Assembly: GCA_017465845.1 (NCBI GenBank)
Contig: JAFTVH010000167.1
Location: forward strand, 1-40,351
Reading direction: 5' to 3'
DNA length: 40,351 bases
Source: Lachnospiraceae bacterium
GTDB taxonomy: Bacteria; Bacillota; Clostridia; Lachnospirales; Lachnospiraceae
Position numbers and translations under genes: made by a program. Below are positions 323-26,999 of the stretch, piece by piece (within the stretch, counting starts at the first letter, position 1; each line of letters opens with the position of its first letter). The notes beneath the pieces are model-generated. The model had not been told where the DNA came from. It ran no database searches and was given only the letters and a program-made list of their open reading frames with translations.

Positions 323-1076
323 TTAATATACCAGGCTACGGAAGTCCTTTATCCTATGAAAAGTTGAAAGATTGGTGTTGTGCGCCGAGTGAGTATTCTC
401 ATCTCCCGATCGTGAAACAAGTACCAGGTCCTCCCCGTCAATTGCCATACAGGCATAGTGGCGGGACTGCTTTTCGCTGTTTCCCTTTGCCACAAGTCCT
501 GCAAAGCACCAGTCCACCATATTTTTTGAAAAAGACAGCTGCAGGCGGTCACGCTCATCGCAGGGTATATTGTATCGCTCCTTGGAAAGCAATTCCAGAC
601 GTGTCATACTGTCTGTAGCCTGAGACGAAAGCAGCCAGAACAGCTGTGTTTTCTCATCCCACAAGATGTGAATGCCAGTTCTCTCCCTGGGTCAGATAAT
701 GCCCGCTGTCCCAAGTGTTTCCTCCATCACGTGAACAATATATAACAAGGTCACCACATTGACCCAGCACATAGACTGCTCCGCCTGCCTCAAAGGAGCG
801 GGCATGGGTAAAATTCCGGTTTGCACGCAGCTGCCAAGTCTCTCCCTTGTCATCAGAGGTATAAATATGCCCTACACGAACTCTTCCTGTCGTAGGATGA
901 GGAATCAGCTCTGCGGCTTCCGGCAAATTCCCCGCATCAGCGCCTCCTATATCATTGGTAAAAACATATCGTCCATTCTCCATCACCCAAATAGCGGGGG
1001 TAAATGCATACATTTTTTCACCGGTTTTGGGTGTCTCATAAATCACTTTATAATCGTTAGCTAATATGTTCATCAT
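323..1076 (-). pseudogene. Decayed sialidase-like (BNR repeat) glycosidase
   Basis: Two overlapping minus-strand frames (654-1076 and 323-664) are the front and back of one protein. The front 140 residues carry two Asp-box motifs (SDDKGETW and SRDGGNTW) of six-bladed sialidase propellers. The back part ends STFHRIKDFRSLVY, closely matching the C-termini of the two intact sialidase-like proteins here (FHRIKDFRKL and FDRIENFREL). The join near 654-664 changes frame, and the middle of the propeller is missing when compared with those proteins, so an internal deletion with frameshift is the best reading. The start ATG at 1076 follows an AGGAT ribosome site. It is the last gene of the island before the ISL3-like end. 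A working split gene is very unlikely. Confidence 0.75.
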
Positions 1077-1170
1077 GTATCCTCACAGTATAATAATGTA
1101 GTCAATTACATCACTCTAACTTTCATTTGTATACATATACATAAGTATCTCTGCCTACTATAGCCTATTC

Positions 1171-2112
1171 CTAAGCCAGAAAATTCTTAACCTGCCGATA
1201 AACACCGTTTCCGTCCAACTCATATTTTGCTAACAATGCACCTGCAGAACCGGATTCACCAAATACATCCCTTACACCAATCCTATATACAGGTACAGGA
1301 TATACTTCTGATAAAGCTTCACATACCGCACCCCCGAGCCCGCCGATGATAGAATGTTCTTCTGCGGTAACTACCTTGCCCGTCTTCTTTGCACTCTTAA
1401 CAATCAAATCCACATCCAGAGGCTTAATTGTACAAATATTAATAACCTCTGCACAGATACCATCCGCAGCAAGCATTTCCGCTGCTTCCAGTGCGGAATT
1501 TACCATAATGCCTGTTGCTACAATAGTCACATCGGTACCTTCTCTTACGATTTCACCCTTACCAATTGCAAACTGATAATCCGGTGTGTCATTAATTACA
1601 GGCACAGCCGCACGGCCAAAACGCATGTATACGGGTCCTTCCATATCCAGCGCTGCTTTTACACAGGCTCTCGCTTCCACCGCATCCGAAGGACTTAAAA
1701 TTGTCATACCCGGAATGGATCTCATAAGTGCAATATCCTCGTTACACTGGTGGGAAGCACCATCTTCACCAACTGTAATTCCTGCATGGGTTGCACCAAT
1801 CTTTACATTTAAATTCGGATAACCAATAGAATTTCTGACCTGTTCAAAAGCCCTGCCTGCCGCAAACATTGCAAAGGTACTGGCTACCGGAATGACACCT
1901 GTCAGAGAAAGCCCCGCTGCAATCCCCATCATATTAGCCTCTGCGATACCGCAGTCAATATGTCTTTCCGGATACTTTTTCTTAAACACACCGGTCTTGG
2001 TGGCTGCTGCCAAGTCCGCATCCAGTACATATAAATCAGGATAACTTTCTCCAAACTCAGCCAGTGCATTGCCATAGGCTTCTCTGGTCGCAATCTTCTT
2101 TACTTGTGACAT
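1171..2112 (-). CDS. Transketolase, C-terminal subunit (split type)
   Basis: This 313-residue protein holds the pyrimidine-binding and C-terminal domains of transketolase. GIAEANM near residue 55-61 carries the glutamate (E58) that activates thiamine diphosphate. Further on are GEDGASHQ and the SPSDAVEA region typical of the family, and a C-terminal domain with VVTAEEHS. It pairs with the upstream gene at 2100-2939, which holds the cofactor phosphate-binding half, with a 13-base overlap that suggests coupled translation. Split transketolases are common in Firmicutes and archaea. In this operon, with a transaldolase, it probably moves two-carbon units from a ketose phosphate into the pentose phosphate pool. 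A dedicated role in an unusual ketose pathway is possible. Confident for family, not for substrate. Confidence 0.93.
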   Translation of the reverse strand: MSQVKKIATREAYGNALAEFGESYPDLYVLDADLAAATKTGVFKKKYPERHIDCGIAEANMMGIAAGLSLTGVIPVASTFAMFAAGRAFEQVRNSIGYPNLNVKIGATHAGITVGEDGASHQCNEDIALMRSIPGMTILSPSDAVEARACVKAALDMEGPVYMRFGRAAVPVINDTPDYQFAIGKGEIVREGTDVTIVATGIMVNSALEAAEMLAADGICAEVINICTIKPLDVDLIVKSAKKTGKVVTAEEHSIIGGLGGAVCEALSEVYPVPVYRIGVRDVFGESGSAGALLAKYELDGNGVYRQVKNFLA

Positions 2113-3071: not shown

Positions 3072-6000
3072 TTAGTTATCTATAGTTTTATTTTCTAAGT
3101 AATATAAATATCCAGCCTCTGTTCCGGTGACAATATCGTAATCACCGTCATTGTCCCAGTTTACCATAGTAAAGCCATGATTATGACCAGAAATATTTCC
3201 TGTTGAAAGACTAACCTTTGACTTGAGATAATAATTACCATTTTCTACTCTTGCTGTTTCGTAAAGAACAAAGGATTTATCATCCTGAATCACATCAAGC
3301 ATTCCGTCACAATTCCAATCAGTAACAACAAATTTCTTTCTTCCGCTTTGTCCACCGGTATTGTTATTCAACTGTAAAGGTGTGCTGTCCTCATTGAGGA
3401 ATATGCGTTGTCCCTGTTTCAATTTTAATTCACCGTTCTCTGAATATCTTTCAAAGAAAGCCAGATACCCCTCATGATCGAGCATTACAAGATCACACAG
3501 GCTATCACTGTTAAGGTCAATTGCATAAACGGTTGATCTGTGCTGTGTTACAAGTTCGTTCCCGTCGGGAGTCCACCACTGCCATGAAGGATAAAGATTT
3601 TCATTTTCCCATTCAACTTCTATAGCCTTATGTTGTGTAAGCTGTCCTTGTTTAGAAGTCCCAATATTCTCAAACCATACAACTCGTCCCGTAACACTGT
3701 TAACGATGATATCAATGTCGCCGTCACCATCCCAATCACAGGCAGATGGAACTAAATATCCCCATTCTTGCTCTAGATCTCCTTGCAGAGATCCTGACGG
3801 TCCTGCTTTAATTTCCAAAGGAGTTCCTTCTTCATCGGTCATCTTTACGGGTGCATCCCAAGAAGGATTTGTACCACCGGTTAAATTCTCCAAAAACCAT
3901 AAGAATCCTCCATTGTCGCCAACAATCATATCTTCGTCGCCGTCACCGTCCCAATCGCAGGAGGTCGGACGACTCAACGCATTAACAGAAAGATAACTTG
4001 CATTGTTTGAAAAGTAGACACCTTCTTCAAAAACCGGAGCACCTGTAGTATCACTGAAACTACCTGTAAACTGAAGATAAAGCATTGTACCGCTTTCACC
4101 ACCAATGAGCAAATCATCCAAACCATCACCGTCCCAATCATAGTTGATGGCATTATAACGGCAACAGTCAAGCTGCAAAATACCGCTTCTTGTTTCAATC
4201 TTAACACCTACATTATCAAATACTGGGGTCTCACTGTTACCTTTATTTTCATAATAGTCAAACTCATTGAGCCATCCGCCGGCAATCAGATCTAAATCTC
4301 CATCCTTGTCCCAGTCAAACATACAGAAACTTCTCACACTAGCATATTGGGTACTGTCATCAATGGTAAACTCAGTTCCTTTACTATTACTGATTGTTCT
4401 TTTCTCACCTGAAAAATCCGGGTTCTCCTCTGTTCCGGTATTTTTAATCCATTTAAATGTATAGGTAAACTCTTGAAGCCACTTACCCTCATTGTCATAT
4501 TCTGCGGTTCCGCTTTTCGTTCTTTCAAAAAGAACAGCATCGCTCAAATTATCACCATCCATATCATACAGCTTAAAGAGAGTATTTAGTCTATCAACTT
4601 CATTGCCTTTTTCATATCCTTGGTTATCCACAGAACCATGCATCACTCCGTTTGCATCAACAAAAACAGGGGAACCATCCTTTTTATAAGACCACCAAAC
4701 ATAGCCTGCACCATTAAACAGTAGTTCTGCTTGTCCGAATTCTGTTGTCCCTCTTGTATTATTCAAGTTTCGGAACGCAAACATTCCACCAGCGGTACCA
4801 CCATAGGTAAGACTAGTACCTGAAGCCACCAAATCCAGATCTCCGTCGCCGTCTATATCGCAAAAACCCGGAAAACTATTCCCTCCCACATCAATGGGAA
4901 CAACCTTGTCAGAATTATTATACGGAATCATTGTAATATCTACATAATCTGTCGGTACCTGATTAATTGTCAGCAATACAATTTGCCTTCTAAGATTTTG
5001 AATGGCTGTTTGCAAATCTGAAGCACTGCTCTCTGCATTCAATGACTTCGCCGTACTAAGAACACTTGTAAACTTCGCCCATTCCTCATCACTATGAATA
5101 CCTTGCGTCATGGCATCCGCAGTTGTAATCAGTTCCTGAAGTTCACTTGATAATTTAGAAGCATCCATCTCCGTTCCTACAGAGAGTTCTGCCACCTCAT
5201 CTATTGTCAGTGCTTTGTCGTACACTTGAATTGCTGAGAACTCAGAAATCAACGTACGCTGCTTCGCAAGATGACTGTATCTTTTCCCGAGATAAAGAGC
5301 ATCATTTCCTTCAAAAAGATCTCCTGATGCTGAACTTAAATCTTGAGAAACAATCAGCTGATAGTCTTCTTTACTTACAGGGTTCTCTACAAGGGATTTC
5401 CATACATTGAGCTTACCACTTTGAGTTTCATCGTTAAATTCTACTGCAATAGCATATACAATCCACTCATCAACTGCTGTATAAGATCTGGTAGCTATCG
5501 TGTTATTTACACCATCTACATTCCACATAAACTCAGAATATCGTTTGGTTACGGCATTTGAAACATTCAAGCTATAACCGCTTTTCTTTGAAAGCAATGA
5601 TGCCACATTATTCTTGAGCGTCTCATTTTCATTATTAAAAATACGTGCTTTCAATACAATGGTTTTATTAGTGAGATCATAAAGATCGGACGCTTCTTGA
5701 TTACAAGCTATAGCAGCATATCCATTTACAGTATCCTCAACTCTAAGTATACCGGAAGAAACGGACGCCCCGCCGGAAAGAGTGATAGTTTCAAGTGTCT
5801 TTCCTTCCGTTGCCTTATCTGTAAGCATTTCTGTTTCATTACTTCCCTTGAAATCCCAGCTGGAAATCAGTGCACCATCTCCACCTGTTGACTCTTCTTC
5901 CGGCTCTTCAGCAAATTCTTTTGATATTATTGCGATTTCATCCAATGCCAGTGCCTTATTATGTACCTGAATTACAGAAAACTCAGAAATTAACGTACGC

Positions 6001-7664
6001 TGTTTAGACAGATGATCATATCTCTTACCAAGGTAAAGAGCGTCAGTTCCTTCAAAAAGCGTCTCCGGCATTGAGCTTAACTCTTGAGAAACAATCTGCT
6101 GGTAGTCAGCCTCACTTGTAGGGTTCTCTACAAGTGATTTCCACACATTGAACTTGCCACTCTGGGTTTCCTCATTAAATTCTACTGAGAAAGCATATAC
6201 TCGCCACTCCTCTACAGCAGTAGTAGACTCGATAACCTCTGCAATAGTATTTTTGGTGTTATCAGGTACTTTATAAATGACCCTGGATACACGACTATTT
6301 TTAGCATTATCAAAATACAGAGTATAAGCACTTTGCTTTGAAAGTAACCCTGATACCATATTATTTCCGGCACTTTCATTATTAGAAATACGCGCTTTTA
6401 TAATAATAGTTTTGTTCGTAAGATCATAAAGATCAGACTCTTCTTGATCACAGGCAATTGCTGCATATCCATTTACTGTGTCATTAACCTTAAGTATACC
6501 AGAAGAAACAGATGCATCTCCTGAAAGAGTAATCATTTCAGTTGTTTTTCCTGCTGTCGCCTTATCTGTAAGCTTTTCAGTTGTATCACTGCCTTCGAAA
6601 TCCCAGTAAGAAATCAACGTACTTTCCTCAGGCTCGCTTGATTCAGGAGTGCTTTCCTCAGGTTCGCTGGATTCAGGGGTACTCTCCTCAGGTTCGCTGG
6701 ATTCAGGGGTACTCTCCTCAGGTTCGCTGGATTCAGGGGTACTCTCCTCAGGTTCGCTGGATTCGGGAGTGCTTTCCTCAGGCTCGCTGGATTCAGGGGT
6801 ACTTTCCTCAGGCTCGCTGGATTCAGGGGTACTTTCTTCAGGTTCGCTGGATTCAGGGGTACTTTCCTCAGGTTCGCTGGATTCCCCAGTACTTTCCTCA
6901 GGTTCGCCGGATTCCGGAGTACTCTCTTCAGGTTTGCTGGATTCCCCAGTACTTTCTTCAGGTTCGCTGAATTCCGGGGTACTCTCTACAGGTTCGCCGG
7001 ATTCCGGTACATTCTCCTCCGTCTCACTATTTTCACTGCTTGCTTCATCATCACTTCCCAGAATCGTATAGGCTACCTTACCTTCGATAATCAATTTCTC
7101 ATTTCCAATTTCTATGGTTTCTGAAGTACTTATCGTATATGTATCATCTGCAGCCTGCACCTCTAATGCACTCACTTGCAGCGAAGTAAGTATCAGAGTA
7201 ACACAAAGAAACATACTGAAGACTCTGTTACCTCTTTTCCGATATGCAACGCATACTCCTACCAAAGCTCCTGCAATGAGAATCAACAATATGCTCCAAA
7301 ACCATATATTACTGTTATCACCGGTAGCGGGTGATATGCTTGTCTTGGGCACCAAAACCACTGTCAAAGTCGCAGTGTCGCCATACCCCTTGAGCTCCGG
7401 CACTGTCAGTGACACATCTCCTTCTGCCTCGTATCCCTTGGGAATGACACATTCCACAGATACATCTTCTACTGCCCAGTTATTTGTGTTTTTTGCAGTA
7501 ACTGATACAGTAATCTCTTCGTCTGAATCATATTTCTGTTTGTCAGTATTTAATGTGATTTCCACACCATCCTGTGTTTGTGTCGCTGCACACACAGGAA
7601 TAACTGTAGTTACCCACAGTACCAAAACCAGAAACATAATCAGTTTCTTCTTGAATTTCTTCAT
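3072..7664 (-). CDS. Giant membrane-tethered surface protein with LamG-like domains and an FG-GAP/VCBS propeller
   Basis: This 1530-residue protein has a signal peptide (1-27), a beta-sandwich-like domain (about 32-107), then SPATGD (111-116), a membrane span (121-141) and the basic run YRKRGNR, the layout of a cell-wall sorting signal placed internally. A second hydrophobic stretch ending in ALEVQA (151-171) resembles a second signal peptide. Next come 13 ten-residue Glu/Pro/Ser repeats, two related LamG-like lectin domains (about 350-565 and 580-800), a short helical FIVAR-like segment (about 810-870), and a C-terminal region with at least nine calcium-binding DxDxDG-type motifs (DIDGDGDLD, DWDGDGDED and others) expected to form a beta-propeller. 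There is no C-terminal sorting motif. The start has GGGAGG nine bases upstream. The likely role is glycan binding or presentation at the cell surface; no catalytic residues are apparent. Confidence 0.8.
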   Translation of the reverse strand: MKKFKKKLIMFLVLVLWVTTVIPVCAATQTQDGVEITLNTDKQKYDSDEEITVSVTAKNTNNWAVEDVSVECVIPKGYEAEGDVSLTVPELKGYGDTATLTVVLVPKTSISPATGDNSNIWFWSILLILIAGALVGVCVAYRKRGNRVFSMFLCVTLILTSLQVSALEVQAADDTYTISTSETIEIGNEKLIIEGKVAYTILGSDDEASSENSETEENVPESGEPVESTPEFSEPEESTGESSKPEESTPESGEPEESTGESSEPEESTPESSEPEESTPESSEPEESTPESSEPEESTPESSEPEESTPESSEPEESTPESSEPEESTPESSEPEESTPESSEPEESTLISYWDFEGSDTTEKLTDKATAGKTTEMITLSGDASVSSGILKVNDTVNGYAAIACDQEESDLYDLTNKTIIIKARISNNESAGNNMVSGLLSKQSAYTLYFDNAKNSRVSRVIYKVPDNTKNTIAEVIESTTAVEEWRVYAFSVEFNEETQSGKFNVWKSLVENPTSEADYQQIVSQELSSMPETLFEGTDALYLGKRYDHLSKQRTLISEFSVIQVHNKALALDEIAIISKEFAEEPEEESTGGDGALISSWDFKGSNETEMLTDKATEGKTLETITLSGGASVSSGILRVEDTVNGYAAIACNQEASDLYDLTNKTIVLKARIFNNENETLKNNVASLLSKKSGYSLNVSNAVTKRYSEFMWNVDGVNNTIATRSYTAVDEWIVYAIAVEFNDETQSGKLNVWKSLVENPVSKEDYQLIVSQDLSSASGDLFEGNDALYLGKRYSHLAKQRTLISEFSAIQVYDKALTIDEVAELSVGTEMDASKLSSELQELITTADAMTQGIHSDEEWAKFTSVLSTAKSLNAESSASDLQTAIQNLRRQIVLLTINQVPTDYVDITMIPYNNSDKVVPIDVGGNSFPGFCDIDGDGDLDLVASGTSLTYGGTAGGMFAFRNLNNTRGTTEFGQAELLFNGAGYVWWSYKKDGSPVFVDANGVMHGSVDNQGYEKGNEVDRLNTLFKLYDMDGDNLSDAVLFERTKSGTAEYDNEGKWLQEFTYTFKWIKNTGTEENPDFSGEKRTISNSKGTEFTIDDSTQYASVRSFCMFDWDKDGDLDLIAGGWLNEFDYYENKGNSETPVFDNVGVKIETRSGILQLDCCRYNAINYDWDGDGLDDLLIGGESGTMLYLQFTGSFSDTTGAPVFEEGVYFSNNASYLSVNALSRPTSCDWDGDGDEDMIVGDNGGFLWFLENLTGGTNPSWDAPVKMTDEEGTPLEIKAGPSGSLQGDLEQEWGYLVPSACDWDGDGDIDIIVNSVTGRVVWFENIGTSKQGQLTQHKAIEVEWENENLYPSWQWWTPDGNELVTQHRSTVYAIDLNSDSLCDLVMLDHEGYLAFFERYSENGELKLKQGQRIFLNEDSTPLQLNNNTGGQSGRKKFVVTDWNCDGMLDVIQDDKSFVLYETARVENGNYYLKSKVSLSTGNISGHNHGFTMVNWDNDGDYDIVTGTEAGYLYYLENKTIDN
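6621..7010 (-). repeat. 13 tandem 30-bp units inside the surface-protein gene
   Basis: Units start every 30 bases from 6621 and encode a ten-residue repeat of the form EPEESTPESS. The 6650-6870 units are nearly identical to each other; the units toward 7010 (the N-terminal side of the repeat) are more diverged, with G, K and F replacements. The unit length is a multiple of three, so unit gain or loss would change the stalk length without breaking the frame. The unit composition suggests an extended, acidic spacer between the membrane hairpin and the first LamG-like domain. Confidence 0.95.
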
Positions 7665-7679: not shown

Positions 7680-8402
7680 TTAACTTCGTTCCTTCATCGC
7701 TTTCATACAGGCTTGCGCCACAAAGGCATTGCTGGAGACAAGCCTCGGGATTCCATGTCCGCCCAGTATTGCATCCGGATAACGATTGAGCAGTTTTTGC
7801 ATGCTTGAAATGTAACTTTGGGCGCAATAATCCACAGATGCAGCAGTGCCTAACACAGGCACATGTGCCCGGCTTCCTTCAGCCGACAAAGTATCCCCCG
7901 TAAAAAAGTATTTCTTATTTTTAATTGTAATGATATATACGACGCTTCCTTGCGTATGCCCTGGTGTAGTCAGCACCTCAATATCGTATTCACAGATTGA
8001 AAGATGGATATCAGATTCCACTTTGATATCAACTTCATAAGGTTCAAAAAGGCAATCTTCCTCAAAATCATGCAGCACACAAGGGAAAATTACCGGATCA
8101 TAATCCCCTAAACGCAGAATCTGATCCGCATCTTTTTGCCCGGCTACGACCGTCGCTCCCTGCTGCTGAAAATAGAAACCGTTACCGCAATGATCAGGAT
8201 GACCGTGCGTAACCAACAATGCAGTAACCGGCAATTTTTCCAGACCCCAGACACGCAGATTGCGTTCAATCATAGGAATTGCTTCGTGGGGGCGACCACA
8301 ATCTACAAGCAACAGACCATCACGGTGTACAATACCATATACATTTCCGAGCAAGCCATAACTCATGCCGGAAAGCAGGTATATCTTTTCAGCTATCTTC
8401 AT
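7680..8402 (-). CDS. Metallo-beta-lactamase-fold hydrolase
   Basis: The 240-residue protein carries the metal motif THGHPDH (65-71), then TPGHTQGS, a GDTL aspartate and a C-terminal GGHG histidine: the full set for a two-metal MBL-fold hydrolase of the glyoxalase II-like group. There is no signal peptide, so it should be cytoplasmic. GGAGGG lies six bases before the ATG. It lies between the transaldolase (40 bases upstream) and the surface-protein gene (15 bases downstream) and so is part of the sugar operon. It may hydrolyse a lactone, thioester or ester intermediate; substrate cannot be read from the sequence. Confidence 0.85.
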   Translation of the reverse strand: MKIAEKIYLLSGMSYGLLGNVYGIVHRDGLLLVDCGRPHEAIPMIERNLRVWGLEKLPVTALLVTHGHPDHCGNGFYFQQQGATVVAGQKDADQILRLGDYDPVIFPCVLHDFEEDCLFEPYEVDIKVESDIHLSICEYDIEVLTTPGHTQGSVVYIITIKNKKYFFTGDTLSAEGSRAHVPVLGTAASVDYCAQSYISSMQKLLNRYPDAILGGHGIPRLVSSNAFVAQACMKAMKERS

Positions 8403-8442: not shown

Positions 8443-9093
8443 TTATCCAAATACTTTTTTATAATCCATCTGGAATTTCTCAATTCCCTGGTCAGTTAAC
8501 GGATGCTTTGTCATCTGCTCAATTACACTATACGGCACTGTTGCAATATCAGCACCCGCCAGAGCGCAGTCAGTTACATGAATCGGATTACGGATACTTG
8601 CTGCAATAATTTCTGTCTGAATATCATGGACCTCAAAGACATCTGCAATTGTTCGAACTAAATCCAGCCCGGACACACTGATATCATCCAGTCTTCCCAC
8701 GAACGGAGATACGTAAGCAGCTCCGGCTCTTGCAGCCAGTAATGCCTGATTTGCGTTAAAAATCAAAGTAACATTTGTTTTGATTCCCTCTGCACTCAAA
8801 ACCTTTACTGCCTTTAATCCTTCTACCGTCATAGGAATCTTTACAACCATATTAGGATGTATCGCACTAATCTCTCTTCCCTCCGCAATCATACCCCTTG
8901 CATCTACTGTTGTTGCCTTTACCTCACCACTGATCGGTCCATCCACAATTGCTGCAATTTCGGAAATTACTTCTTTAAAGTCTCTTCCTTCTTTCGCAAT
9001 CAGAGACGGATTAGTCGTCACTCCGCAAATCACGCCCATATCATTTGCTTTTTTGATATCTTCAATATTTGCTGTATCTATAAAAAATTTCAT
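8443..9093 (-). CDS. Small (type 4/TalC) transaldolase
   Basis: A 216-residue single-domain transaldolase of the TalC/fructose-6-phosphate aldolase family. The Schiff-base lysine is K85 in VVKIPMT, and TTNPSLIAK (26-34) and SPFVGRLDD (129-137) are family motifs. E57 and F131 occupy the places where true fructose-6-phosphate aldolases of the FsaA type carry Gln and Tyr, so transaldolase activity is the better guess (inference from family knowledge). Together with the split transketolase in the same operon it completes the non-oxidative pentose phosphate exchange. GAGGAA lies before the ATG, and a cre-like palindrome sits just upstream. Confidence 0.93.
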
Positions 9094-10270: not shown

Positions 10271-10289
10271 GCCTCATTCTCCCAGCTCA

Positions 10290-11666: not shown

Positions 11667-11729
11667 TTCTTTACTACCTCCTGAATCTTTCTCAAAACAA
11701 TCATACGCTCTCCTCTTCTCCAAAATAAT

Positions 11730-15639: not shown

Positions 15640-15748
15640 ATCGTCCTGTAACCTTCTTTCTTTTTTAATAGACCCTAGAAACTCCAAGCCTTATTCCCGG
15701 CTTCTGTGAGACCATTTTATTGTATCTTTATACCAAATTTACAAATTA

Positions 15749-16514: not shown

Positions 16515-16532
16515 ATCTGCATCATCTCCCAA

Positions 16533-17137: not shown

Positions 17138-17692
17138 TTACAGATTTTCCAGAATGACCTCTTTCACACGTTTGGCACAAGCCCAAATACCTTCCTCAGT
17201 CAAATGAATATGGTCGTCTTTTCTGATATATGTATCAATATTAGGTTGAACAAAGCTGTACATATCATTAATAATAATTCCTCGTTTTTCTAATTCTGGA
17301 ACTAAAATCGCATTATATCTTTCGATACGTTCTATATTGGAATATTGGTAATCAGGAGCAACTGGTGTAGTAGTTGCAAAAATAACTTTCTTTGCACGCT
17401 TTTTTAGTATATCTGCTATTCGAATCATATTAGCAACATACTCGTCCTCAGACGTAAGCACTCCTTCGCCATGATCCATGGTATCCCATAATCCGTTATT
17501 CCAATGAATGATATCACTGTCTGCTATATCAGCTGCCCAATTAACCATCACACCTCGAAGCGTATACTTACTAAAACGGCAGTTTTCATTGGGTTGAAAA
17601 ACCGTAAATTCCTCACCCAACAGTTCAGGTAATTTTTTACCATAACCTATAAATCTTATGGAATCTCCAAGTAAAGTAATTTTGCCATTCAT
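17138..17692 (-). CDS. SGNH-like hydrolase, diverged subtype, first gene of the triple
   Basis: About 184 residues. GDSIRFIGYG near the start holds the nucleophile, HWNNGLWD the likely oxyanion asparagine, and DDHIHLTEEG the Asp-His pair. It is the closest relative of the gene at 16533-17117, from which it is separated by 20 bases, pointing to tandem duplication. I prefer the start at MNGKITLLG (17692) because GGAAGGAAGAG lies right before it; an ATG five codons earlier is also in frame. It is led by the second control box and by a possible seven-codon leader. Confidence 0.8.
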   Translation of the reverse strand: MNGKITLLGDSIRFIGYGKKLPELLGEEFTVFQPNENCRFSKYTLRGVMVNWAADIADSDIIHWNNGLWDTMDHGEGVLTSEDEYVANMIRIADILKKRAKKVIFATTTPVAPDYQYSNIERIERYNAILVPELEKRGIIINDMYSFVQPNIDTYIRKDDHIHLTEEGIWACAKRVKEVILENL

Positions 17693-17710
17693 TTCTCTTC
17701 CTTCCATTCT

Positions 17711-18760: not shown

Positions 18761-20399
18761 ATCCCTTTTCCTCCAGATCATATGGGAAACTAACGATCAC
18801 ACAGGTTCCTTCACCCAACTCGGATGCAATAGTAATATCCGCTTTTTCCCCATAGAAATGCTTCAACCGCCTCATAGAATTATAGTATCCCACATGAGAA
18901 CCATCTGATTCCTTCCGACGCATACTTTCGTTCAATTCCTGCAGCTTTTGGGGAGGCATTCCCGGACCGTCATCCATAATCCGAAAGGTAACCATTCCAT
19001 CTTCATACATCCCGTTGATTGTAATATGGGTTATGATATCCTGCTTTACCACATGCTTTATAATATTCTCCACAAAATTGTGCAAAAGCAGAGGCGGTAC
19101 ACGCACAAAACCGATCTCCGGATCATACTCATATGCTATCTCAACACTTCCCGGATAACGCACTTCCACCACCTGCATATATCCCTCTATCAAATGTTGT
19201 TCTTTACCAAACAGCTCAAGCTCCTTCTCTCTGCGAAACATATACCGAAAATAATCAGATAAATACAGAATGGTATTACAAATAGCTTCTTCCTCATGCC
19301 TCTCCGCCAGATTATAGATCATATTAAAAATATTTAACAGGAAATGAGGTCTGATCTGCAGCTGCAGACGGCTTAGCTCCATTTTCTGATAGTCCAGTTC
19401 TTTCTCGTAATTTTCAATTTTCAAAAAGGCAATCTGCTCTGACATCTTGTTAAAGGATTCGTAGACATATTCGAATTCTGCAGAGTTGGCCTTTTCTGTG
19501 ATTCGATATGTCATGTCTCCTCCCTGCAGCTTTTTCTGGGCGTGGTTCAACACTTTCAGAGGTGATAGCAACAGATAATGGACAATGAAATAGATGCCCG
19601 GCACCAACGCCACAGCAGCCAGCATTCCAACCCACACAAGCAGATAATAGTTCATGATCTTTGCCAAAATGTCACTGCGGCGGATGACAGCATTCAGGTA
19701 AATATTTTTGTCTACCTGTACCGATACTATAATCAGATCCTTATCATCGGCATACATCATTTCCTCTGTGACGGAAATATCAGTACTTTCATATCCGATC
19801 ATTTCCTGTGTTTCATCAAAAATAGTCTCCAGTTCAATCCACCCGCCATATTTACTAAGATGCGTCTGCAAATAACTACTGTATTTGACACTATACAATA
19901 ATACCTGGGTTTCATCGATTTGTTCCAGAGACCAGCCTGTTTTCATCTCAGTGCGAATCTTCTCTTCTGCTGCCTTTGTCTCCACCGGATGCTCTACATA
20001 TCTATTCGTACTTTTCCATATAAAAACATCATCGACTCCTCCTACATAAGCGAAATATCCGTCCGCTCCATTTATTAAAGACAGATTTTCCTTTGCAATC
20101 TTGCTGAAGGCGCTCTTTTCTATCAAATAGGGATTCTCCGCTGACTCTGCTGTCAGAAAAGCCTCCCCCTCCTCCTGATAGCAGACATCAAACAGATATG
20201 AGGCGGACACATTCATACGATTATCCAGATTAATGGCCTGATTTTCCAATATACCGTTTACGGACAGATGCGCCTGTTCCAGCATTGCATCTATCGCCAC
20301 ATTGCCTATAACAATTGCCAAAATAGTAAAAGGAAGTACTACCATCATTATGATAATCAGTAATTTCGTAGAAACAGACCTTAAAATTCGCTTTTTCAT
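18738..20399 (-). CDS. YesM-type sensor histidine kinase
   Basis: A 553-residue membrane kinase: first span about 13-36, an extracellular sensor region about 37-250, second span about 251-277, HAMP domain to about 330, then the His_kinase domain with H352 in QIRPHFLLN and an ATPase domain with HNFVENIIKH and DDGPGMPP. The long external loop is where a sugar or binding-protein signal would be read. The ATG overlaps the stop of the upstream hydrolase as ATGA and lacks a clear ribosome site, so translation is probably coupled. It forms a pair with the regulator downstream. Confidence 0.93.
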   Translation of the reverse strand: MKKRILRSVSTKLLIIIMMVVLPFTILAIVIGNVAIDAMLEQAHLSVNGILENQAINLDNRMNVSASYLFDVCYQEEGEAFLTAESAENPYLIEKSAFSKIAKENLSLINGADGYFAYVGGVDDVFIWKSTNRYVEHPVETKAAEEKIRTEMKTGWSLEQIDETQVLLYSVKYSSYLQTHLSKYGGWIELETIFDETQEMIGYESTDISVTEEMMYADDKDLIIVSVQVDKNIYLNAVIRRSDILAKIMNYYLLVWVGMLAAVALVPGIYFIVHYLLLSPLKVLNHAQKKLQGGDMTYRITEKANSAEFEYVYESFNKMSEQIAFLKIENYEKELDYQKMELSRLQLQIRPHFLLNIFNMIYNLAERHEEEAICNTILYLSDYFRYMFRREKELELFGKEQHLIEGYMQVVEVRYPGSVEIAYEYDPEIGFVRVPPLLLHNFVENIIKHVVKQDIITHITINGMYEDGMVTFRIMDDGPGMPPQKLQELNESMRRKESDGSHVGYYNSMRRLKHFYGEKADITIASELGEGTCVIVSFPYDLEEKGYESFDSE

Positions 20400-21577
20400 G
20401 AGTTTAAACAGGAATACACCACATTCCGCAATCTCGGCTGATAATATTCCTCCCTCGGATTCAGTGTATGCTGTGCATAGAATACGCCCAATCCGATTTC
20501 AGGGTCAATGATAGCAGTAGCACCGGCCGCACCGCCCCAGCCGAACTCGCCCAGACTGCTGATCACTCCGGACTTTGCAGGATTGATGTGGGTACGTACA
20601 CCCAGTCCATAACCACAGCCTGCCAGCTGCCTCCAGTTAAAATCCTTGAGCACCTCTTCACTCAACCGGTTGGTCCGCATCAGATTCACCGAATACGGCG
20701 ATAAAATGCGCTCTCCCGTTAAGCCCAGTCCAAAACCGGCCAATGCAGCCATCAGCTTTGCATAATCGAAAACCGTAGTAATGATGCCTGCTCCGCCGCT
20801 GTCATATTCCTCACCAAGTATATGGCTTACACCTTTACCCACATTCTTAAAATATCCTTCTTTGGAATTGCCGTGCTTCTGGGCTTCTACGATGTCCATG
20901 TTCTCATTGCCCGCCGCAACAAAAGAATACTGCTCTGCTGTTCTCTTCAAAGTTTCAGGTGTATGGTGATATACGCTTTCCGTCATATCAAGCGGGTCAA
21001 AAATATTTTCCTTCACATAATCCCTGAACTTCTGTCCGGACACCACGCTGATCAGCGCTGCCAGCACATCATGACAAATGCTGTACTGCCAATGAGTTCC
21101 CGGTTCAAAGCAGAGCGGATCTGCTGCTACGCACCGAATGGTCTCAACTGTGTCCATCTTACCACCGGTCACTTCTGCTGCCTTCTTAAAACCTTCCGAC
21201 TTTAAATTGTAGCTGAATCCGGCTGTCATGGAAAACAAATCGCCCACTTTTATCGGCGTCTCAGCCTTCTTCAGATCTCCCTCAGGCGTCTTGACGTACA
21301 TCTCTTTAAATTCCGGTATGTAATCATACAGCGGATCTGACAATAATATCTTTCCACGCTCCAGAAGCTGTGTTCCTGCGGTTACCGTTGTTACTTTGGA
21401 ACAGGAATAAATATTGTACATTTCCTCGCCGTTTAAAGGAATTTTATTTTCCAGATCTGAATAGCCTGTATGATATTCAAATACTTTTTTACCTTTCAGA
21501 TATACTTCTATGGCATTGCCGGGTGTTCTCTCTGCTGCCATATGGTCCATGAAAAGCTTTAAATTTGTAAAGTCCAT
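20396..21577 (-). CDS. EstB-like serine hydrolase (class C beta-lactamase fold)
   Basis: A 393-residue beta-lactamase-fold protein. The nucleophile motif is S58-C-S-K61. Instead of the usual YxN, it has WQYSICHDVL, like the Y-S motif of family VIII esterases such as EstB; the third block is EFGWGGAAGA. This favours an esterase over a beta-lactamase or DD-peptidase. There is no signal peptide. The start at 21577 (MDFTNLK) sits behind AGGAGGGAG; the frame is open 11 codons further. It follows the alpha/beta hydrolase by 25 bases and overlaps the kinase gene by four, an odd placement of an enzyme in a sensor operon. Probably removes an ester group from the island's substrate. Confidence 0.85.
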   Translation of the reverse strand: MDFTNLKLFMDHMAAERTPGNAIEVYLKGKKVFEYHTGYSDLENKIPLNGEEMYNIYSCSKVTTVTAGTQLLERGKILLSDPLYDYIPEFKEMYVKTPEGDLKKAETPIKVGDLFSMTAGFSYNLKSEGFKKAAEVTGGKMDTVETIRCVAADPLCFEPGTHWQYSICHDVLAALISVVSGQKFRDYVKENIFDPLDMTESVYHHTPETLKRTAEQYSFVAAGNENMDIVEAQKHGNSKEGYFKNVGKGVSHILGEEYDSGGAGIITTVFDYAKLMAALAGFGLGLTGERILSPYSVNLMRTNRLSEEVLKDFNWRQLAGCGYGLGVRTHINPAKSGVISSLGEFGWGGAAGATAIIDPEIGLGVFYAQHTLNPREEYYQPRLRNVVYSCLNS

Positions 21578-21602
21578 TATTCTCCCTCCTATGCTGCCTA
21601 CC

Positions 21603-22346
21603 TTAATCACAGTGACACAAGATGAAATCTACAACCGGTGCAGGGTCCTGCAATCCATGAGGGTGGTGATCACATCCGGGCTTAATATACACTTCAATCT
21701 CCACTCCGGCATCTTTATATGCCCTTTGAAGAAAGATACCATTCTCACAATAAGGAACCACACTGTCACTATCTCCTGCTACCATCACAACAGGAATCCG
21801 GTGGCTTACCAGGGTTCCCAGCTTGTCAAGAGGCATATCCCTGTATGCCAGTAATTCTGAAATACTCTTTAAACCAAGTGCGTTCAGAATCTCAGAATTG
21901 TCTGCCGAAAGAGGATTGCCGATTCCAAATCCACACGGGCAGCTCATAAAGTTGACCACCGGTGCATCAAGATACAGGCATTTGATCAGTTCCGGATATC
22001 TTGCAGCCAGCTTAATGGCAATCAGGCCGCCGCAGCTCATACCAACCGGCACACATTGTGAATTCAGTTTGTATTCATTCTGTACAAAACGGATGAATCT
22101 TGCCTTTCTGTCCAGGTCGGGATTGGTTGCCCAACGATTGTCGTTTTTGATGTAGCAGAGATGAAAACCTTTCTCCAGAAGTGTTGTTTCAACAGCCTCA
22201 GGGAATGCGCCCCAATATTCCGTTTTGACAGCCAGATAGCCATTGGCCGTTCCTTCCTGCGGAAATACTATGATTGCTTCGTGCTCTTCAAATAAGATTT
22301 GCTTACATGTATATCCCATCCAGTTTGTTTCTTTGGTGTCCGCCAT
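21603..22346 (-). CDS. Alpha/beta hydrolase
   Basis: A 247-residue single-domain alpha/beta hydrolase. The nucleophile elbow is GMSCGGL, followed by a strand and helix; the acid is likely the aspartate in VAGDSDSVVP, and the histidine lies in KPGCDHHPHG. No signal peptide is visible. CGGAGG lies before the ATG. It is the first gene of the operon driven by the promoter at 22386-22414 and is followed by another serine hydrolase, then the sensor pair. Likely a cytoplasmic carbohydrate esterase or a related acyl hydrolase. Confidence 0.85.
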   Translation of the reverse strand: MADTKETNWMGYTCKQILFEEHEAIIVFPQEGTANGYLAVKTEYWGAFPEAVETTLLEKGFHLCYIKNDNRWATNPDLDRKARFIRFVQNEYKLNSQCVPVGMSCGGLIAIKLAARYPELIKCLYLDAPVVNFMSCPCGFGIGNPLSADNSEILNALGLKSISELLAYRDMPLDKLGTLVSHRIPVVMVAGDSDSVVPYCENGIFLQRAYKDAGVEIEVYIKPGCDHHPHGLQDPAPVVDFILCHCD

Positions 22347-22538: not shown

Positions 22539-22991
22539 TTACTGTACCTTAACTTTTAACACCATTTTCCTTACCTGCGCTGCAGTCCCGGCCTTCTGCG
22601 AAGGCTTATGTGCATCATCCGGGAAGAAAATCGCAAACTCTCCCGATGTCAGCAAAAAATCCACACAATCCTCTCCGTCTTCAAAAAACAGGACATCCGC
22701 TTCCACATTATGCCGTACTGCCGCCCCAAGCTTTTTACGATTTACATACTCTACTTTTTCAACACCATCCACCATAAACTGTATATCTATGTAACGATCA
22801 TGCGCCTCAAACGCACCTTCTTCGCGTGTCTCATAGTCCTGTACTTTGGCATACAGATCCGTACCGCAGATTTCATAAGTGCCCGGTCCTGCAGGATTCT
22901 TCAAGTATTCTTCTATAAATGCAAATGCCTCTCTAAACAAAGGATGAGCCGCCACATAGCAGTCCTTATTTTCTATTCTGTCTAATATCAT
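22539..22991 (-). CDS. YhcH/YjgK/YiaL-family protein (NanQ-like)
   Basis: A 150-residue cupin-fold protein of the DUF386 family. The metal-site motifs are EAHDRYIDIQ and FFPDDAHKP. Members include YhcH/NanQ, linked to sialic acid use as an anomerase, and the beta-subunit of some beta-galactosidases. It begins 19 bases after the NanA-family lyase, a pairing also found in sialic acid loci, so a mutarotase-like role on the sugar acid or keto sugar before the lyase acts is reasonable. It is the last gene before the 22470-22510 terminator. No signal peptide. Confidence 0.9.
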   Translation of the reverse strand: MILDRIENKDCYVAAHPLFREAFAFIEEYLKNPAGPGTYEICGTDLYAKVQDYETREEGAFEAHDRYIDIQFMVDGVEKVEYVNRKKLGAAVRHNVEADVLFFEDGEDCVDFLLTSGEFAIFFPDDAHKPSQKAGTAAQVRKMVLKVKVQ

Positions 22992-23010: not shown

Positions 23011-23940
23011 TTATCCGGTATAATGTTTTGAAAAAACAGATGCCAGCTCAGCAAGCATAGCAACCTCTTTCTTGAAAGTTTCATTCATTCCCTTATTATC
23101 CATCTTTCTGCAGAAAGTGTCAATAGGCAGTCCCTCAAACTGCTGCAGGTGATATTTTGCATTCACCGGATAGTACTGGCGCTCAATCAGTGCTGCCATG
23201 GAAAGGAAGTCCTGAAGCAAACCTGCTCGTTCCTCTTTGCTATGCTCACACAACCAGGCATAAAGTGCCGGATGGAAATTTGCCATGACGCCGCTGAAGC
23301 CTGCTGCCCCGCTGCGCAGTGAATCCAGAAGAGTAGCGGTATTGGCATTATATAATTTAAACTCGCTTCCTTTAAGCACCTCAAGCCGCTTCTCGATCAA
23401 CTCCATATCGCAGCAGGTATCTTTTAAGAAAAAGAATCGTCCCGTTTCTTTACATTCTTTCAGATTCTCCAGAGACATCAGTCTTTTATACGGATAGGGA
23501 CATTCATAAAAGCCAAGCGGAATATCAGCCGGAATTTCTTTTAAAAATCCCCTGCAGCGTTCCATCCAGATCTCATCATCTTCGTCTTCTGCCGCAAACT
23601 GGTTGGTAATGAGAACCACAGCATCCACTCCGGTCTCTGCCATCCGGCTGACTTCCTTAACCTGATCCTCCATCCTGTCAGACAGATTACCACAAGCAAT
23701 GACCGGTACACGTCCTGCTGCAGTTTTTACTACAGTATCTGCTACCTGAAGTCTTTCTTCCAACGACAGGTGAAACATTTCACTGGACTGACACACAGCA
23801 AATAGGCCGCTGCTGCCATTATCAATATACCAATCTGTTAATTTTTCCAAGCCTGCAAAATCCACCTCTCCGTCAGGGCAAAAAGGCGTCAACATTACCG
23901 GCCATACTCCTCCCGGAAACTTTCTTACTTCCTGATTCAT
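23011..23940 (-). CDS. DapA/NanA-family lyase (dihydrodipicolinate synthase superfamily)
   Basis: About 309 residues forming the TIM barrel of the family. The Schiff-base lysine is K173 in FFLKDTC and the catalytic tyrosine is likely Y145 in GFYECPYP. The substrate-carboxylate loop, usually GTTGE or GSSGE, reads NGSSGLFAVCQSSE, so the binding site is altered. The start at 23940 (MNQEVRK) has GGAGGAG ten bases upstream. It lies 29 bases after the sugar kinase and 19 before the YhcH-like gene. It probably cleaves a 2-keto-3-deoxy sugar acid to pyruvate and an aldehyde. N-acetylneuraminate lyase activity is possible but nanE and nanK are missing nearby. Confidence 0.88.
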   Translation of the reverse strand: MNQEVRKFPGGVWPVMLTPFCPDGEVDFAGLEKLTDWYIDNGSSGLFAVCQSSEMFHLSLEERLQVADTVVKTAAGRVPVIACGNLSDRMEDQVKEVSRMAETGVDAVVLITNQFAAEDEDDEIWMERCRGFLKEIPADIPLGFYECPYPYKRLMSLENLKECKETGRFFFLKDTCCDMELIEKRLEVLKGSEFKLYNANTATLLDSLRSGAAGFSGVMANFHPALYAWLCEHSKEERAGLLQDFLSMAALIERQYYPVNAKYHLQQFEGLPIDTFCRKMDNKGMNETFKKEVAMLAELASVFSKHYTG

Positions 23941-23969
23941 CTTCGTATTCTCCTCCATATGTATCAATA

Positions 23970-25568
23970 CTATTTTTTGAAATGTACAATTGCTGAACGC
24001 TCTATCTCCAATCCCGCCTGATAATGTTTCATAAATGCTTCATAATCTTCCACATCTGCCGGATCCGGTAACATAGTTTCCTTAGTCTGACTATCAAAAA
24101 TCTTTGTTTTCAGATAATCACCGAGACTTTCATCCGGTCCCTTGTCCATCATATAAGAAGCCAGCAGCGCAATACCCCAGGCTCCGCCTTCCCCGGCAGT
24201 CTCCATAACAGTGACCGGCGCGTTGATTGCTGCTGCCAAGATACGCTGGCCTACGCCTTTTGTCTTAAAGAAACCGCCATGGCCTGTAATACTGTCGATA
24301 GCCACCTTTTCTTCTTTTATCAAAATATCAAATCCGGTTTTTAGCGCTCCCAGGGAAGTAAATAAATGGGTACGCATAAAATTGGCAAGCGTCATCCTGG
24401 AATCCGGCATCCGTACAAAGAGCGGCCTGCCCTCTTCCATACCCGTCACATGTTCTCCGGACAAATAGTTATATGCCAGCAAATTACCGCAGTCCCGATC
24501 TCCCTGCAATGCCTGCCGATACAATGTAGAAAACAGCTCATTCTTCCCCATTTTCACTCCAAAGCAGGTAAGACATTCCTCAAATAATGCCACCCATGCA
24601 TTGAGATCCGAAGTACAGTTATTGCAATGGGCCATTGCAACCGGGCTTCCGTCCGGCGTTGTCACCATGTCGATTTCCGGATATACTTTGGAAAGCTCAT
24701 GATCCATTACGATCATGCCGAATACTGAAGTTCCGGCAGAGACATTTCCCGTTCTTTTGTCCACGCTGTTGGTGGCCACCATGCCTGTTCCGGCATCTCC
24801 CTCAGGAGGGCAAAGAGGGATGCCGGCCTTTAACATCCCGGAGGGATCCAACAGTCCTGCACCTTCTTTCGTTAGCACACCGGCTTTTTCTCCTGCTGCA
24901 AGCACTCCGGGCAAGATTTCATGCAGCTTCCACGGGAAATTCTTTACCTCAGCCAGCTGTTCAAACTGTTGCATCATATATCGGTTGTAGTCGTTTGTTT
25001 CACTATCAATCGGGAACATTCCGGAGGCATCTCCGATTCCCAGTACCTTTTCACCGGTCAGTTTCCAGTGCACATAGCCGGAAAGTGTGGTCATAAAGGC
25101 AATATCTTTTACATGTGCTTCTTTCTTTAAGATTGACTGGTATAAATGGGCAATACTCCAACGCTGCGGAATATTGAACTGAAAAAGCTCTGTTAAGCTT
25201 CCGGCAGCCTCTGCTGTCATAGTATTTCTCCAGGTCCGAAATGGAACCAGCAGCTTATCCGCCCCGTCAAATGCCAGATACCCGTGCATCATGGCACTGA
25301 TTCCTATGGAGCCCACTGTGGTAAGGACTGTATCATATTTTTTCTCTACATCCAGCGCCAATTCCCTGTAGCTTTCCTGCAGGCCTTTCCAAACCAGATC
25401 AAGATCATAGGTCCATATTCCATCTATCAACTGATTTTCCCATTCATAGCCACCGGATGCTAATGGCTTTCCATCATTATCAATTAATACTGCCTTAATT
25501 CTGGTAGAGCCAAGTTCAATTCCCAGGGAAGTTCTCCCTGATTGAATACTATTCTTTATCGCTTGCAT
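23970..25568 (-). CDS. FGGY-family carbohydrate kinase
   Basis: A 532-residue kinase of the FGGY family. [12 protein letters not shown] (16-27) is the first phosphate loop. MMHGYL and RTWRNT follow. [10 protein letters not shown] holds the catalytic base D258, and [19 protein letters not shown] together with [15 protein letters not shown] forms the C-terminal ATP-binding part (landmarks only). It resembles xylulokinases and ribulokinases, so a ketose or polyol substrate is likely. AAGGAG lies before the ATG. It sits between a sialidase-like gene and the lyase, so it could phosphorylate the aldehyde or ketose released, making it ready for transaldolase or transketolase encoded in the other operon. 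Confidence 0.92.
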
Positions 25569-25607
25569 AAATCTTTTCTCCTTGATGAATTACACTTCCC
25601 TGATAAG

Positions 25608-26999
25608 TTACAGCTCCCTGAAATTCTCAATTCTGTCAAACACCGAGTAATTTGCATCATGATAATTATGCGCTCCATTGATTGCTGTTCGACAGAGGAA
25701 TACAATATCATCACCTTCAAATTCAAAGTCTACGTATTGAAATCCCTCCTGCATCGGGTCACGATCACGACGGTCTATTACATCCAGTTCCACCTCCCAC
25801 TTACAAAGGTCCTTAGAACTCATAAGTGAAAGCAGATTTCGACTGCCGACCTTTTCTTTATCAAGGATGCGGCTGGCAAGCGTATAATAGCGTTTAGATT
25901 TTTCGTCATATTTTATTTCAAACTTGGAATGGTTGGCAGGAAACTCCATGGCTCTGCTGAATTTGAGAGGCGCTTCCGGATTTTCTGCATCTACTTCGTA
26001 GATTAATGCCAGTCCATAATTGGGGGTCATATTTTGCATCTGATACCGCATAATGTTATATAATTTCCCTTCCGGAGCAGCAACCAGACAGCCTTCCAAC
26101 GGCCCGGCAGTCTTTCCCTTCGGAGCCCCCTCCCATGCATGGTCATACATTACAGGCTCGCTGAACAGCCAGCTTTCTTTCTTCATGATATCACTTCCGA
26201 TTTCAGCAGAAGCCACCATCGGTGCATGATATCCTCTGCCCCAGCTTCCCCATTCCAACGTATTCCAGATTCTTCCGTTGTACTCTACAACAGGCTGTGG
26301 ATTCTTGTGCACTCCTGCTTCGCCGTTTTTGCCATTTCCTCCGCGAAGAAGGACTGTAGGTTCGCAAAAGCTTTTTCCGCCATCCACAGACTTTCCAATC
26401 AGAAGATCCCCATATTCTGTGGAACATGCCAGCATATATAACTCATCCCGGTACAAAAACAATTTGCCCCAGAAGCATGGGAAAAGTTCACAGGCATAGT
26501 GCCAGCTCTTGCCATTATCCTCAGAGCGAAAAATCAGAGAGAGATTTTGTGGATATCCTCCACTAAATACATCCATAGAAGCAACAATCACGCCATCCGG
26601 CAATCTCACAAAGGAAGGACTGCAGAGGTATTTTCCTGAAAAGCTATATGCTTCATCATCTGGATGAAGGTAATTTACAACAGAACCAAAGAAACAGATG
26701 CCTGTTCTGGCTAACCGCACACGGCTTTTCAGAAGTCCGCTCGTGACGTAAAACTCATAGTCCGTTTCTGCTTCAAGTCCTGTAATCTCAAAAGAATTTT
26801 TATCAGTCTGCCCGGTCAGGATAAACACGTCCTGCCCTCTCTTTCTGCAAAAAATCTGATAGCCCTCTGCACCCTCTGTCTCTAACCACTCAAAATGTAT
26901 ACTTGTCTCAAAAGGTACAATACGACAGATGTATATGTCTCCGCAACATACAAACGGCGGCCTATAAGGTGCACTACTCCATGTTGAAACTGCTTTCAT
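25608..26999 (-). CDS. Sialidase-like (BNR) glycoside hydrolase, cytoplasmic
   Basis: The 463-residue protein has a fibronectin-III-like N-terminal domain (to about 95) and a propeller with Asp boxes SEDNGKSW and SVDGGKSF. It is a paralogue of 10290-11666; both share NYLHPxD, STEYGDLLIGKS and a C-terminal H(N/D)xNY(L)S motif. There is no signal peptide, unlike most secreted sialidases. AAGGAG precedes the ATG. It is the first gene of the operon with the sugar kinase, lyase and YhcH-like gene, controlled by the strong promoter at 27079-27107. Likely cleaves a glycosidic bond of an imported oligosaccharide; the arginine triad for a carboxylate cannot be confirmed by eye. Confidence 0.83.
   Translation of the reverse strand: MKAVSTWSSAPYRPPFVCCGDIYICRIVPFETSIHFEWLETEGAEGYQIFCRKRGQDVFILTGQTDKNSFEITGLEAETDYEFYVTSGLLKSRVRLARTGICFFGSVVNYLHPDDEAYSFSGKYLCSPSFVRLPDGVIVASMDVFSGGYPQNLSLIFRSEDNGKSWHYACELFPCFWGKLFLYRDELYMLACSTEYGDLLIGKSVDGGKSFCEPTVLLRGGNGKNGEAGVHKNPQPVVEYNGRIWNTLEWGSWGRGYHAPMVASAEIGSDIMKKESWLFSEPVMYDHAWEGAPKGKTAGPLEGCLVAAPEGKLYNIMRYQMQNMTPNYGLALIYEVDAENPEAPLKFSRAMEFPANHSKFEIKYDEKSKRYYTLASRILDKEKVGSRNLLSLMSSKDLCKWEVELDVIDRRDRDPMQEGFQYVDFEFEGDDIVFLCRTAINGAHNYHDANYSVFDRIENFREL

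Follow-up and report, generated by a model that had tools for sequence, protein, structure and literature searches.

Which compound is broken down by a gene cluster that joins sialidase-like proteins and an aldolase-type lyase to a sugar kinase of the arabinose type? The cluster lies in a 40,351-nucleotide stretch of Lachnospiraceae DNA, here called the window, which is one entire contig (JAFTVH010000167.1) of a 4.19-Mb genome in 201 contigs (GCA_017465845.1; 85% complete); since the window is the whole contig, sequence beyond position 1 lies outside it. Between positions 26999 and 323, 23 open reading frames (ORFs) follow one another on the minus strand, none separated from the next by more than 237 bp; two of the 23 are fragments of a single dead gene. 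An initial annotation had named in this region BNR (sialidase-like) proteins, four SGNH hydrolases, two other serine hydrolases, a lyase, a YhcH-like protein, an FGGY kinase, a TalC transaldolase, a transketolase, a metallo-beta-lactamase-fold hydrolase, an Lpl-type importer, and regulators; Pfam and NCBIfam found all of these families in their places, part of them weakly. The run begins, in this order, with a protein consisting of an FN3 domain and a sialidase-type propeller (BNR-FN3 protein 1; 25608 to 26999), the FGGY kinase (23970 to 25568; FGGY_N/FGGY_C, AraB clade), a DapA/NanA-fold class I lyase that we call DapL (23011 to 23967), and the YhcH-family protein (22539 to 22991), all on the minus strand. 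A divergent AraC-family regulator gene on the plus strand (27209 to 28081; Pfam HTH_18 and cupin), just beyond the region first described, belongs to this unit. Our tentative reading is that the cluster handles an acylated oligosaccharide that carries a 3-deoxy-2-ulosonic acid. The likeliest such acid is 3-deoxy-D-manno-oct-2-ulosonate (Kdo), which would be taken to pyruvate and D-arabinose. We put the probability of this reading at about 0.38.

The pairing of BNR-FN3 with DapL recurs in other species. Searching GTDB genome contigs with the BNR-FN3 alignment, we obtained 74 loci. By their record titles, all come from metagenome-assembled or uncultured Clostridia or Bacillota, and many from guts of ruminants or other herbivores. 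DapL was present in 35 of these loci, always on the strand of BNR-FN3 (35/35) and mostly within 150 bp of it (31/35), and a divergent AraC gene lay less than 400 bp from DapL in 21 of the 35. Where a single gene stood between the two, it encoded a ribokinase (locus L078), a ribulokinase (L097), or YhcH (L127); in L090, the pair was 8.6 kb apart. A ribulokinase directly follows the pair in L093, and another lies about 360 bp upstream of BNR-FN3 in L081, a locus that has no DapL. These three ribulokinases and the ribokinase scored above curated cut-offs. PfkB genes were also seen, at a distance of 2.9 kb in L088 and on the opposite strand in L120. SGNH, TalC, Lpl permease, and transketolase genes were found in 0 to 3 of the 74 loci; these neighbor counts were made by tblastn, which misses distant SGNH-like genes, and by eye such genes adjoin BNR-FN3 in L076, L136, and L142. 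The conserved core is thus smaller than the 27-kb set: it consists of BNR-FN3 beside DapL, in many cases joined by a divergent AraC gene. The initial annotation had looked to conserved co-occurrence of its gene families; this was borne out for the pair but not for the whole 27-kb set, which we rejected as one conserved pathway on these counts.

DapL contains the fold domain of the class I DapA/NAL superfamily (PF00701, DHDPS; 100.5 bits, cut-off 22.1). We aligned 23 DapL sequences, namely the window's and 22 of the 28 DapL ORFs from BNR-FN3 loci, with none from the relatives described below. K182 and Y154 are present in 23/23 and align with the lysine and tyrosine of DapA, which we take to be the Schiff-base lysine and the catalytic tyrosine. 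The GxxGE carboxylate loop is lacking: all 23 have CQSSE where DapA has GTTGE, in agreement with the altered loop noticed initially, and among 70 loci collected with a pattern that itself requires the cysteine, the loop reads CQSSE in 66 and CQSTE in 4. An invariant YKR follows the tyrosine motif, with K161 and R162 in 23/23. The protein reached only 40 bits against the curated nanA model (cut-off 382). DapL is a candidate aldolase for a 3-deoxy-2-ulosonate such as Kdo. A second, distant DapL (39%; loop CYSSE) is encoded in the same genome on contig C119 (L162:11966-12979), where it adjoins, by eye, ROK-kinase-like and mannose-6-phosphate-isomerase-like genes, with a GH106-cluster gene a few kilobases off.

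Two intact BNR-FN3 proteins, 46% identical, are encoded at 25608 to 26999 and at 10290 to 11723 on the minus strand, and no signal peptide is visible by eye in protein 1. Pfam assigned only fn3 to protein 1, while the BNR_2 match of protein 2 scored 28.1 bits, under the cut-off of 31.4. We built a profile from 41 BNR-FN3 sequences (39 proteins of the 74 loci and the window's two) and compared it with PDB. Titin FN3 domains ranked top, followed by exo-alpha-sialidase 2bf6 and its kin at an E value of 4e-5, a match made of two stretches of which neither is significant alone (0.25 and 4). GH93 structures also matched (3a71, 1.4e-4; 2ydp, 2e-3), over only about 40 residues and so not as full-length family members. 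The roles and positions that we assign to sialidase residues (the triad arginines, acid/base aspartate, glutamate, tyrosine, and FRIP motif) are our assumption. On that basis, E302 and R318, which like R387 and R437 are invariant (41/41), fall within the stretch aligned to sialidases at the GH33 catalytic glutamate and second arginine, and R387 (41/41) and Y422 (40/41) are candidates, by spacing only, for the third arginine and the nucleophile tyrosine. Q151 is likewise invariant (41/41). For BNR-FN3, the word sialidase is a statement on fold, and the likeness is weak. The initial label "sialidase-like" holds as far as the weak profile match (E=4e-5), the glutamate, and the second arginine, and fails at the first arginine and the acid/base aspartate. 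The YhcH protein belongs to the YhcH/YjgK/YiaL family (DUF386; TIGR00022, 104 bits, cut-off 45.5) and scored 90 bits against the acetylneuraminate anomerase model, whose cut-off is 160.

The FGGY kinase was compared with 34 distinct kinases from relatives; identities range from 52 to 67% and reach about 60% or more for 32 of the 34. In the tree of these sequences, only one terminal branch is longer than that of the window kinase (0.357), and the median for the others is 0.096. The window kinase falls in a clade (support 0.978) with two kinases of its genus (L041 and L042) and with kinases from further families of the order; closer grouping has a support of only 0.33. The FGGY loci of relatives (n=20) contain araD in 19, split transketolase in 11, and araA in 7, so in relatives both the FGGY kinase and the split transketolase are L-arabinose-linked. 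We do not favor the kinase as the ordinary AraB of the genus, given the grouping in the tree and the long branch, and we rejected the apulose pathway, which combines an FGGY kinase with a split transketolase, because both are araD-linked in relatives. At 1e-60, only one FGGY match is found in the window genome and, at its 85% completeness, no AraA at 1e-80; araD is a remnant holding only the C-terminal end of the Aldolase_II domain (L163:4598-4903, contig C175). FucI, the L-fucose/D-arabinose isomerase, adjoins FucU on contig C155. A kinase kept while the L-arabinose route looks broken fits, as far as an incomplete assembly goes, a supply of D-ribulose from D-arabinose via FucI. A gene for a distant isomerase of the AraA/FucI family, on contig C47, has as neighbors an acetyl-xylan-esterase-like gene and an AraC-like gene in divergent orientation.

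FucI also tracks DapL in a sample of the family. DapL was detected in 12/146 genomes at 1e-40 and, among same-family genomes, in 23/397 at 1e-50, the window genome included in both. FucI (1e-80) was present in 23/23 DapL-positive family genomes and in 87/374 DapL-negative ones (Fisher's test, 2.4e-14). AraA, used as a control for sugar generalists, occurred in 18/23 and 143/374, respectively, and the FucI link stays after stratification by AraA (18/18 versus 38/143 and 5/5 versus 49/231). We then counted the neighbors of DapL in 37 loci of relatives (11 + 26; the window genome's own paralogue excluded): a protein of a second group, BNR_2, in 14, an LplB-type permease in 14, GH106 in 11, IclR in 10, a 2-hydroxyacid dehydrogenase in 9, YhcH in 8, a tripartite carboxylate transporter in 3, TRAP in 2, and FucI, operonic with DapL, in 2. 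One of these two operons reads GH106, FucI, DapL, BNR_2 (L152) and the other BNR_2, DapL, TctC/B/A, YhcH, FucI (L182). None of 20 araB control loci from relatives contained DapL, a protein of either BNR group, GH106, YhcH, or FucI; the 2-hydroxyacid dehydrogenase was found in 1 of them, LplB in 1, and LplC in 3. Outside the window, then, the family pairs DapL with the second BNR group, and BNR-FN3 pairs with DapL in other Clostridia, as it does in the window. A PGDH-like 2-hydroxyacid dehydrogenase gene directly adjoins DapL in L172, L174, L175, L176, L177, and L180.

A sialidase-like protein, YhcH, and a pyruvate-type lyase beside C5 kinases point to a 3-deoxy-2-ulosonate that gives pyruvate and a pentose. 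Loss of pyruvate from a C8 acid leaves C5, and the joining of different C5 kinases to the unit suits a C5 product. Among the natural sugars known to us, the 3-deoxy-2-ulosonate that yields pyruvate and a pentose is Kdo, the pentose being D-arabinose. Kdo occurs in the lipopolysaccharide of Gram-negative bacteria; in side chain C of the plant pectic polysaccharide rhamnogalacturonan-II (RG-II), its partner is rhamnose, which would suit the GH106 neighbors of DapL. We propose that the Lpl-type importer would take up the oligosaccharide, that SGNH and the other serine hydrolases would remove acyl groups, and that BNR-FN3, as a cytoplasmic glycosidase, would free the sugar acid. YhcH, as an anomerase, might then open the ring, and DapL would split Kdo into pyruvate and D-arabinose. 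FucI, encoded elsewhere in the genome, could convert D-arabinose to D-ribulose, the putative substrate of the FGGY kinase, and D-ribulose-5-phosphate might pass through the split transketolase and TalC to pentose phosphate reactions. What the sequences establish is gene content, the recurrent pair, C5 kinases at a few of the loci, FucI co-occurrence in the family sample, and the invariant lysine and tyrosine; each reaction, the substrate, the cytoplasmic site, and D-ribulose as the substrate of the kinase are inferred. The more specific claim of a dedicated Clostridia pathway for Kdo catabolism, with a cytoplasmic BNR-FN3 that has a rebuilt sialidase site, DapL as EC 4.1.2.23, and D-arabinose converted to D-ribulose-5-phosphate, is more tentative, and we give it about one chance in three. 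Published work is consistent with parts of this route. Side chain C of RG-II is the only reported source of Kdo in plants (PMC12168206); NAL-family enzymes form Kdo from pyruvate and D-arabinose in vitro (PMC4016182) and cleave Kdo in vitro (PMC13220900); and a Kdo hydrolase is among the entries listed for GH33 (PMC9120202).

Several results weigh against the Kdo reading. A GH33-type Kdo hydrolase should keep both the first triad arginine and the acid/base aspartate; in BNR-FN3, C126 (38/41) occupies the place of the former, and the latter has no counterpart and falls in an alignment gap. BNR-FN3 was found in 0/37 DapL loci of relatives, and by eye their BNR_2 partners seem to carry glutamine at the catalytic glutamate. 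C5 kinases lie inside the unit in only 3 of 72 DapL loci. UxaA/UxaB-family genes near DapL (L153) and the 2-hydroxyacid dehydrogenase (9/37) suit other sugar acids. Of the 23 DapL-positive family genomes, 22 have FucI on a different contig from DapL or at a distance of over 70 kb; 20 of these 22 FucI loci were read, a rhamnulokinase-family kinase was matched in 8, and FucU was seen by eye in at least 7. Since such a kinase at FucI loci is expected for L-fucose use, shared fucose use may partly explain the link between FucI and DapL; in the two operons, L152 and L182, the link is direct. Nor was FucI enriched in the BNR-FN3 set. The check took in every DapL-positive locus (35) and, of the 39 that lack DapL, 15 (14 genomes); FucI was present in 26/35 DapL-positive genomes and 14/14 of the others, and FucI as a universal partner is not upheld. 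NanE, moreover, occurs in 23/69 DapL-positive genomes. Finally, the distant AraA-like protein encoded on C47 (L165:4586-6256; PF11762, 30 bits; L-arabinose isomerase model, 69 versus 622) might stand in for AraA.

In an alternative that we hold to be unlikely, DapL would act as aldolase or dehydratase on a 2-keto-3-deoxy acid derived from a hexuronate or pentonate (KDG or 2-keto-3-deoxypentonate type), and the BNR proteins would be uronidases or lyases on acidic oligosaccharides. This would agree with genes of UxaB/UxaA type (mannitol-dehydrogenase family and altronate/galactarate dehydratase) in the vicinity of DapL in L153, the only locus where they were seen, by eye; with the IclR genes, one of which was tested and matched BhcR and KdgR best, under cut-offs; with TRAP or tripartite carboxylate transporters in 5/37 loci; and with a contig that encodes, besides a BNR-FN3 paralogue, GH88 and two dehydratases of the enolase superfamily. 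KDX, moreover, is also cleaved by E. coli NanA and human NPL. A 2-keto-3-deoxy acid of this kind, however, yields glyceraldehyde or glycolaldehyde, which leaves the ribulokinase, ribokinase, and FucI in the units unexplained. The C5 kinases and FucI are likewise left over if the substrate is the other ulosonic acid of RG-II, 3-deoxy-D-lyxo-2-heptulosarate (Dha), with K161 and R162 holding its second carboxylate and the 2-hydroxyacid dehydrogenase acting on the C4 product. Despite the conservation of both residues in 23/23 DapL sequences and the excess of the dehydrogenase over controls (9/37 versus 1/20), we regard Dha as the least probable of the readings weighed here.

If the locus served L-arabinose oligosaccharides, BNR-FN3 would be a GH93-like exo-arabinanase, the kinase an L-ribulokinase with transketolase and transaldolase downstream, and DapL would have a side role. 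The GH93 structures among the PDB matches (3a71, E=1.4e-4; 2ydp, 2e-3), the supported clade (0.978) of araA/araD-linked kinases, and the distant AraA-like protein on C47 speak for this. We still hold an L-arabinose locus to be distinctly unlikely, with AraA lacking at 1e-80 in the 85% complete genome and araD a remnant, with AraD in 0/74 and AraA in 1/74 BNR-FN3 loci, and with the tight DapL pairing left unexplained. A sialic acid (Neu5Ac or Kdn) route built from nonstandard genes seems even less likely to us. The families of BNR, DapL, and YhcH would suit it, NanE is present in 17/34 DapL-positive genomes of the window's order, and mucin users would show FucI co-occurrence too. On the other side, no NanE above cut-off was found in the window genome or in 46/69 DapL-positive genomes, the nanA model was not reached in the window genome, GH106 genes are neighbors, and sialidase residues are lost.

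Compared to known systems, the module looks as if it worked like a nan locus and yet fails the nan membership features tested. The likeness to nan loci (sialidase, NanA, NanE, NanK, and YhcH) lies in having a sialidase-like protein, an NAL-fold lyase, a YhcH-type protein, and a dedicated importer together. The window differs in having a C5 kinase, not NanE and NanK, in the CQSSE loop of its lyase, and in a BNR protein without the first arginine and the acid/base aspartate. In the 85% complete genome, the best NanE match reached 20 bits (cut-off 27) and no match reached the nanA cut-off. The earlier proposal of a sugar-acid pathway unlike the usual nan loci is supported by these searches, by a DapL that has the class I lysine and tyrosine but a changed loop, and by the recurrence of the BNR-FN3-DapL pair. 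With araBAD loci of relatives, the window shares the kinase clade and the split transketolase, but it has neither araA nor araD, and its long-branch kinase sits beside DapL, BNR-FN3, and YhcH. GH33 sialidases, which include Kdo hydrolases and KDNases, resemble BNR-FN3 in the weak profile match and the aligned glutamate and second arginine; BNR-FN3 has cysteine for the first arginine, no aligned acid/base aspartate, an N-terminal FN3 domain, and no export signal by eye. Kdo aldolase (EC 4.1.2.23) resembles DapL in the proposed reaction, a link that we only infer. Degradation of RG-II has reportedly been studied in Bacteroides. Our searches of open-licence PMC literature turned up no description of a Kdo catabolic locus, and EC 4.1.2.23 stands among the orphan activities sampled by a 2007 survey, in the class "difficult" (PMC1940265). 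If the Kdo reading is true, it would provide genes for Kdo use in gut Clostridia and a sequence for this orphan activity, and it would define two propeller groups for which an annotation as sialidase would mislead. In its weaker form, a recurrent BNR and DapL unit acting on some ulosonic acid, the result would still be a compact two-gene module.

The rest of the cluster, all on the minus strand, contains the putative deacylation and import genes. Downstream of YhcH lie an alpha/beta hydrolase (21603 to 22346; Abhydrolase_1, 32.5 bits), a proposed deacylase; an esterase-type serine hydrolase of the beta-lactamase fold (20396 to 21610; PF00144, 179 bits); a histidine kinase (18738 to 20399; PF06580 and PF02518); and an AraC-type response regulator (17945 to 18781; PF00072 and PF12833). 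Three SGNH hydrolase genes follow, at 17138 to 17707, 16533 to 17117, and 15861 to 16532. The last scored 79.7 bits with PF13472; the first two scored 26.8 and 24.3 bits, under the cut-off of 32.9, and by eye have a GDS motif and a C-terminal Asp/His motif despite these scores. The importer comprises an LplB-type permease (14665 to 15687; PF00528, 56.3 bits), an LplC-type permease (13723 to 14658; PF00528, 33.2 bits), both assigned to the Lpl type by eye, and a solute-binding lipoprotein (11855 to 13684) with a weak PF01547 match (21.8 bits, under the cut-off of 26). Between the lipoprotein gene and that of BNR-FN3 protein 2 stands an 18-pair terminator-like hairpin with a T-rich tail (11730 to 11772), which possibly sets unequal expression of the flanking genes; over the region, terminator-like sites were not above shuffles (12 versus 13.2), and promoter-like sites were about 1 standard deviation above them.

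Beyond BNR-FN3 protein 2 come the fourth SGNH hydrolase (9176 to 10270; PF13472, 70.8 bits), the TalC/FSA-type transaldolase (8443 to 9093; TIGR00875, 314 bits, above cut-off), and the metallo-beta-lactamase-fold hydrolase (7680 to 8402; PF00753, 78.6 bits). A large protein with an N-terminal hydrophobic segment and FG-GAP repeats (3072 to 7664; PF13517) is probably exported; it has a Ser/Pro/Glu repeat linker with 8 copies of SSEPEESTPE, and its C-terminal 842 residues gave no PDB sequence match at E 0.01. The split transketolase is encoded at 2100 to 2939 (N-terminal subunit, PF00456) and 1171 to 2112 (C-terminal subunit, PF02779 and PF02780). The dead gene at the end belongs to a BNR group other than BNR-FN3. 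Its N-terminal fragment (654 to 1076) is 38% identical to residues 43 to 157, and its C-terminal fragment (323 to 664) 73% identical to residues 346 to 458, of a longer copy, a 458-amino-acid homologue on contig C119, so that the middle part is missing.

A further BNR-FN3 paralogue (57%) is encoded on contig C104 of the same genome (L006, L195, and L196), with two enolase-superfamily dehydratases, an RraA-like aldolase, SDR-like genes, and a GH10 enzyme as neighbors and, further along, GH88, a heparinase-II/III-like gene, and Lpl-type importers. This is probably a locus for a uronate-containing glycan. Window positions 9184 to 10431 and L006:10137-11384 on C104 form a 1248-bp block of 94% DNA identity that spans, in both loci, the SGNH gene and the 3' end of the adjoining BNR-FN3 gene and reflects a recent duplication or conversion.

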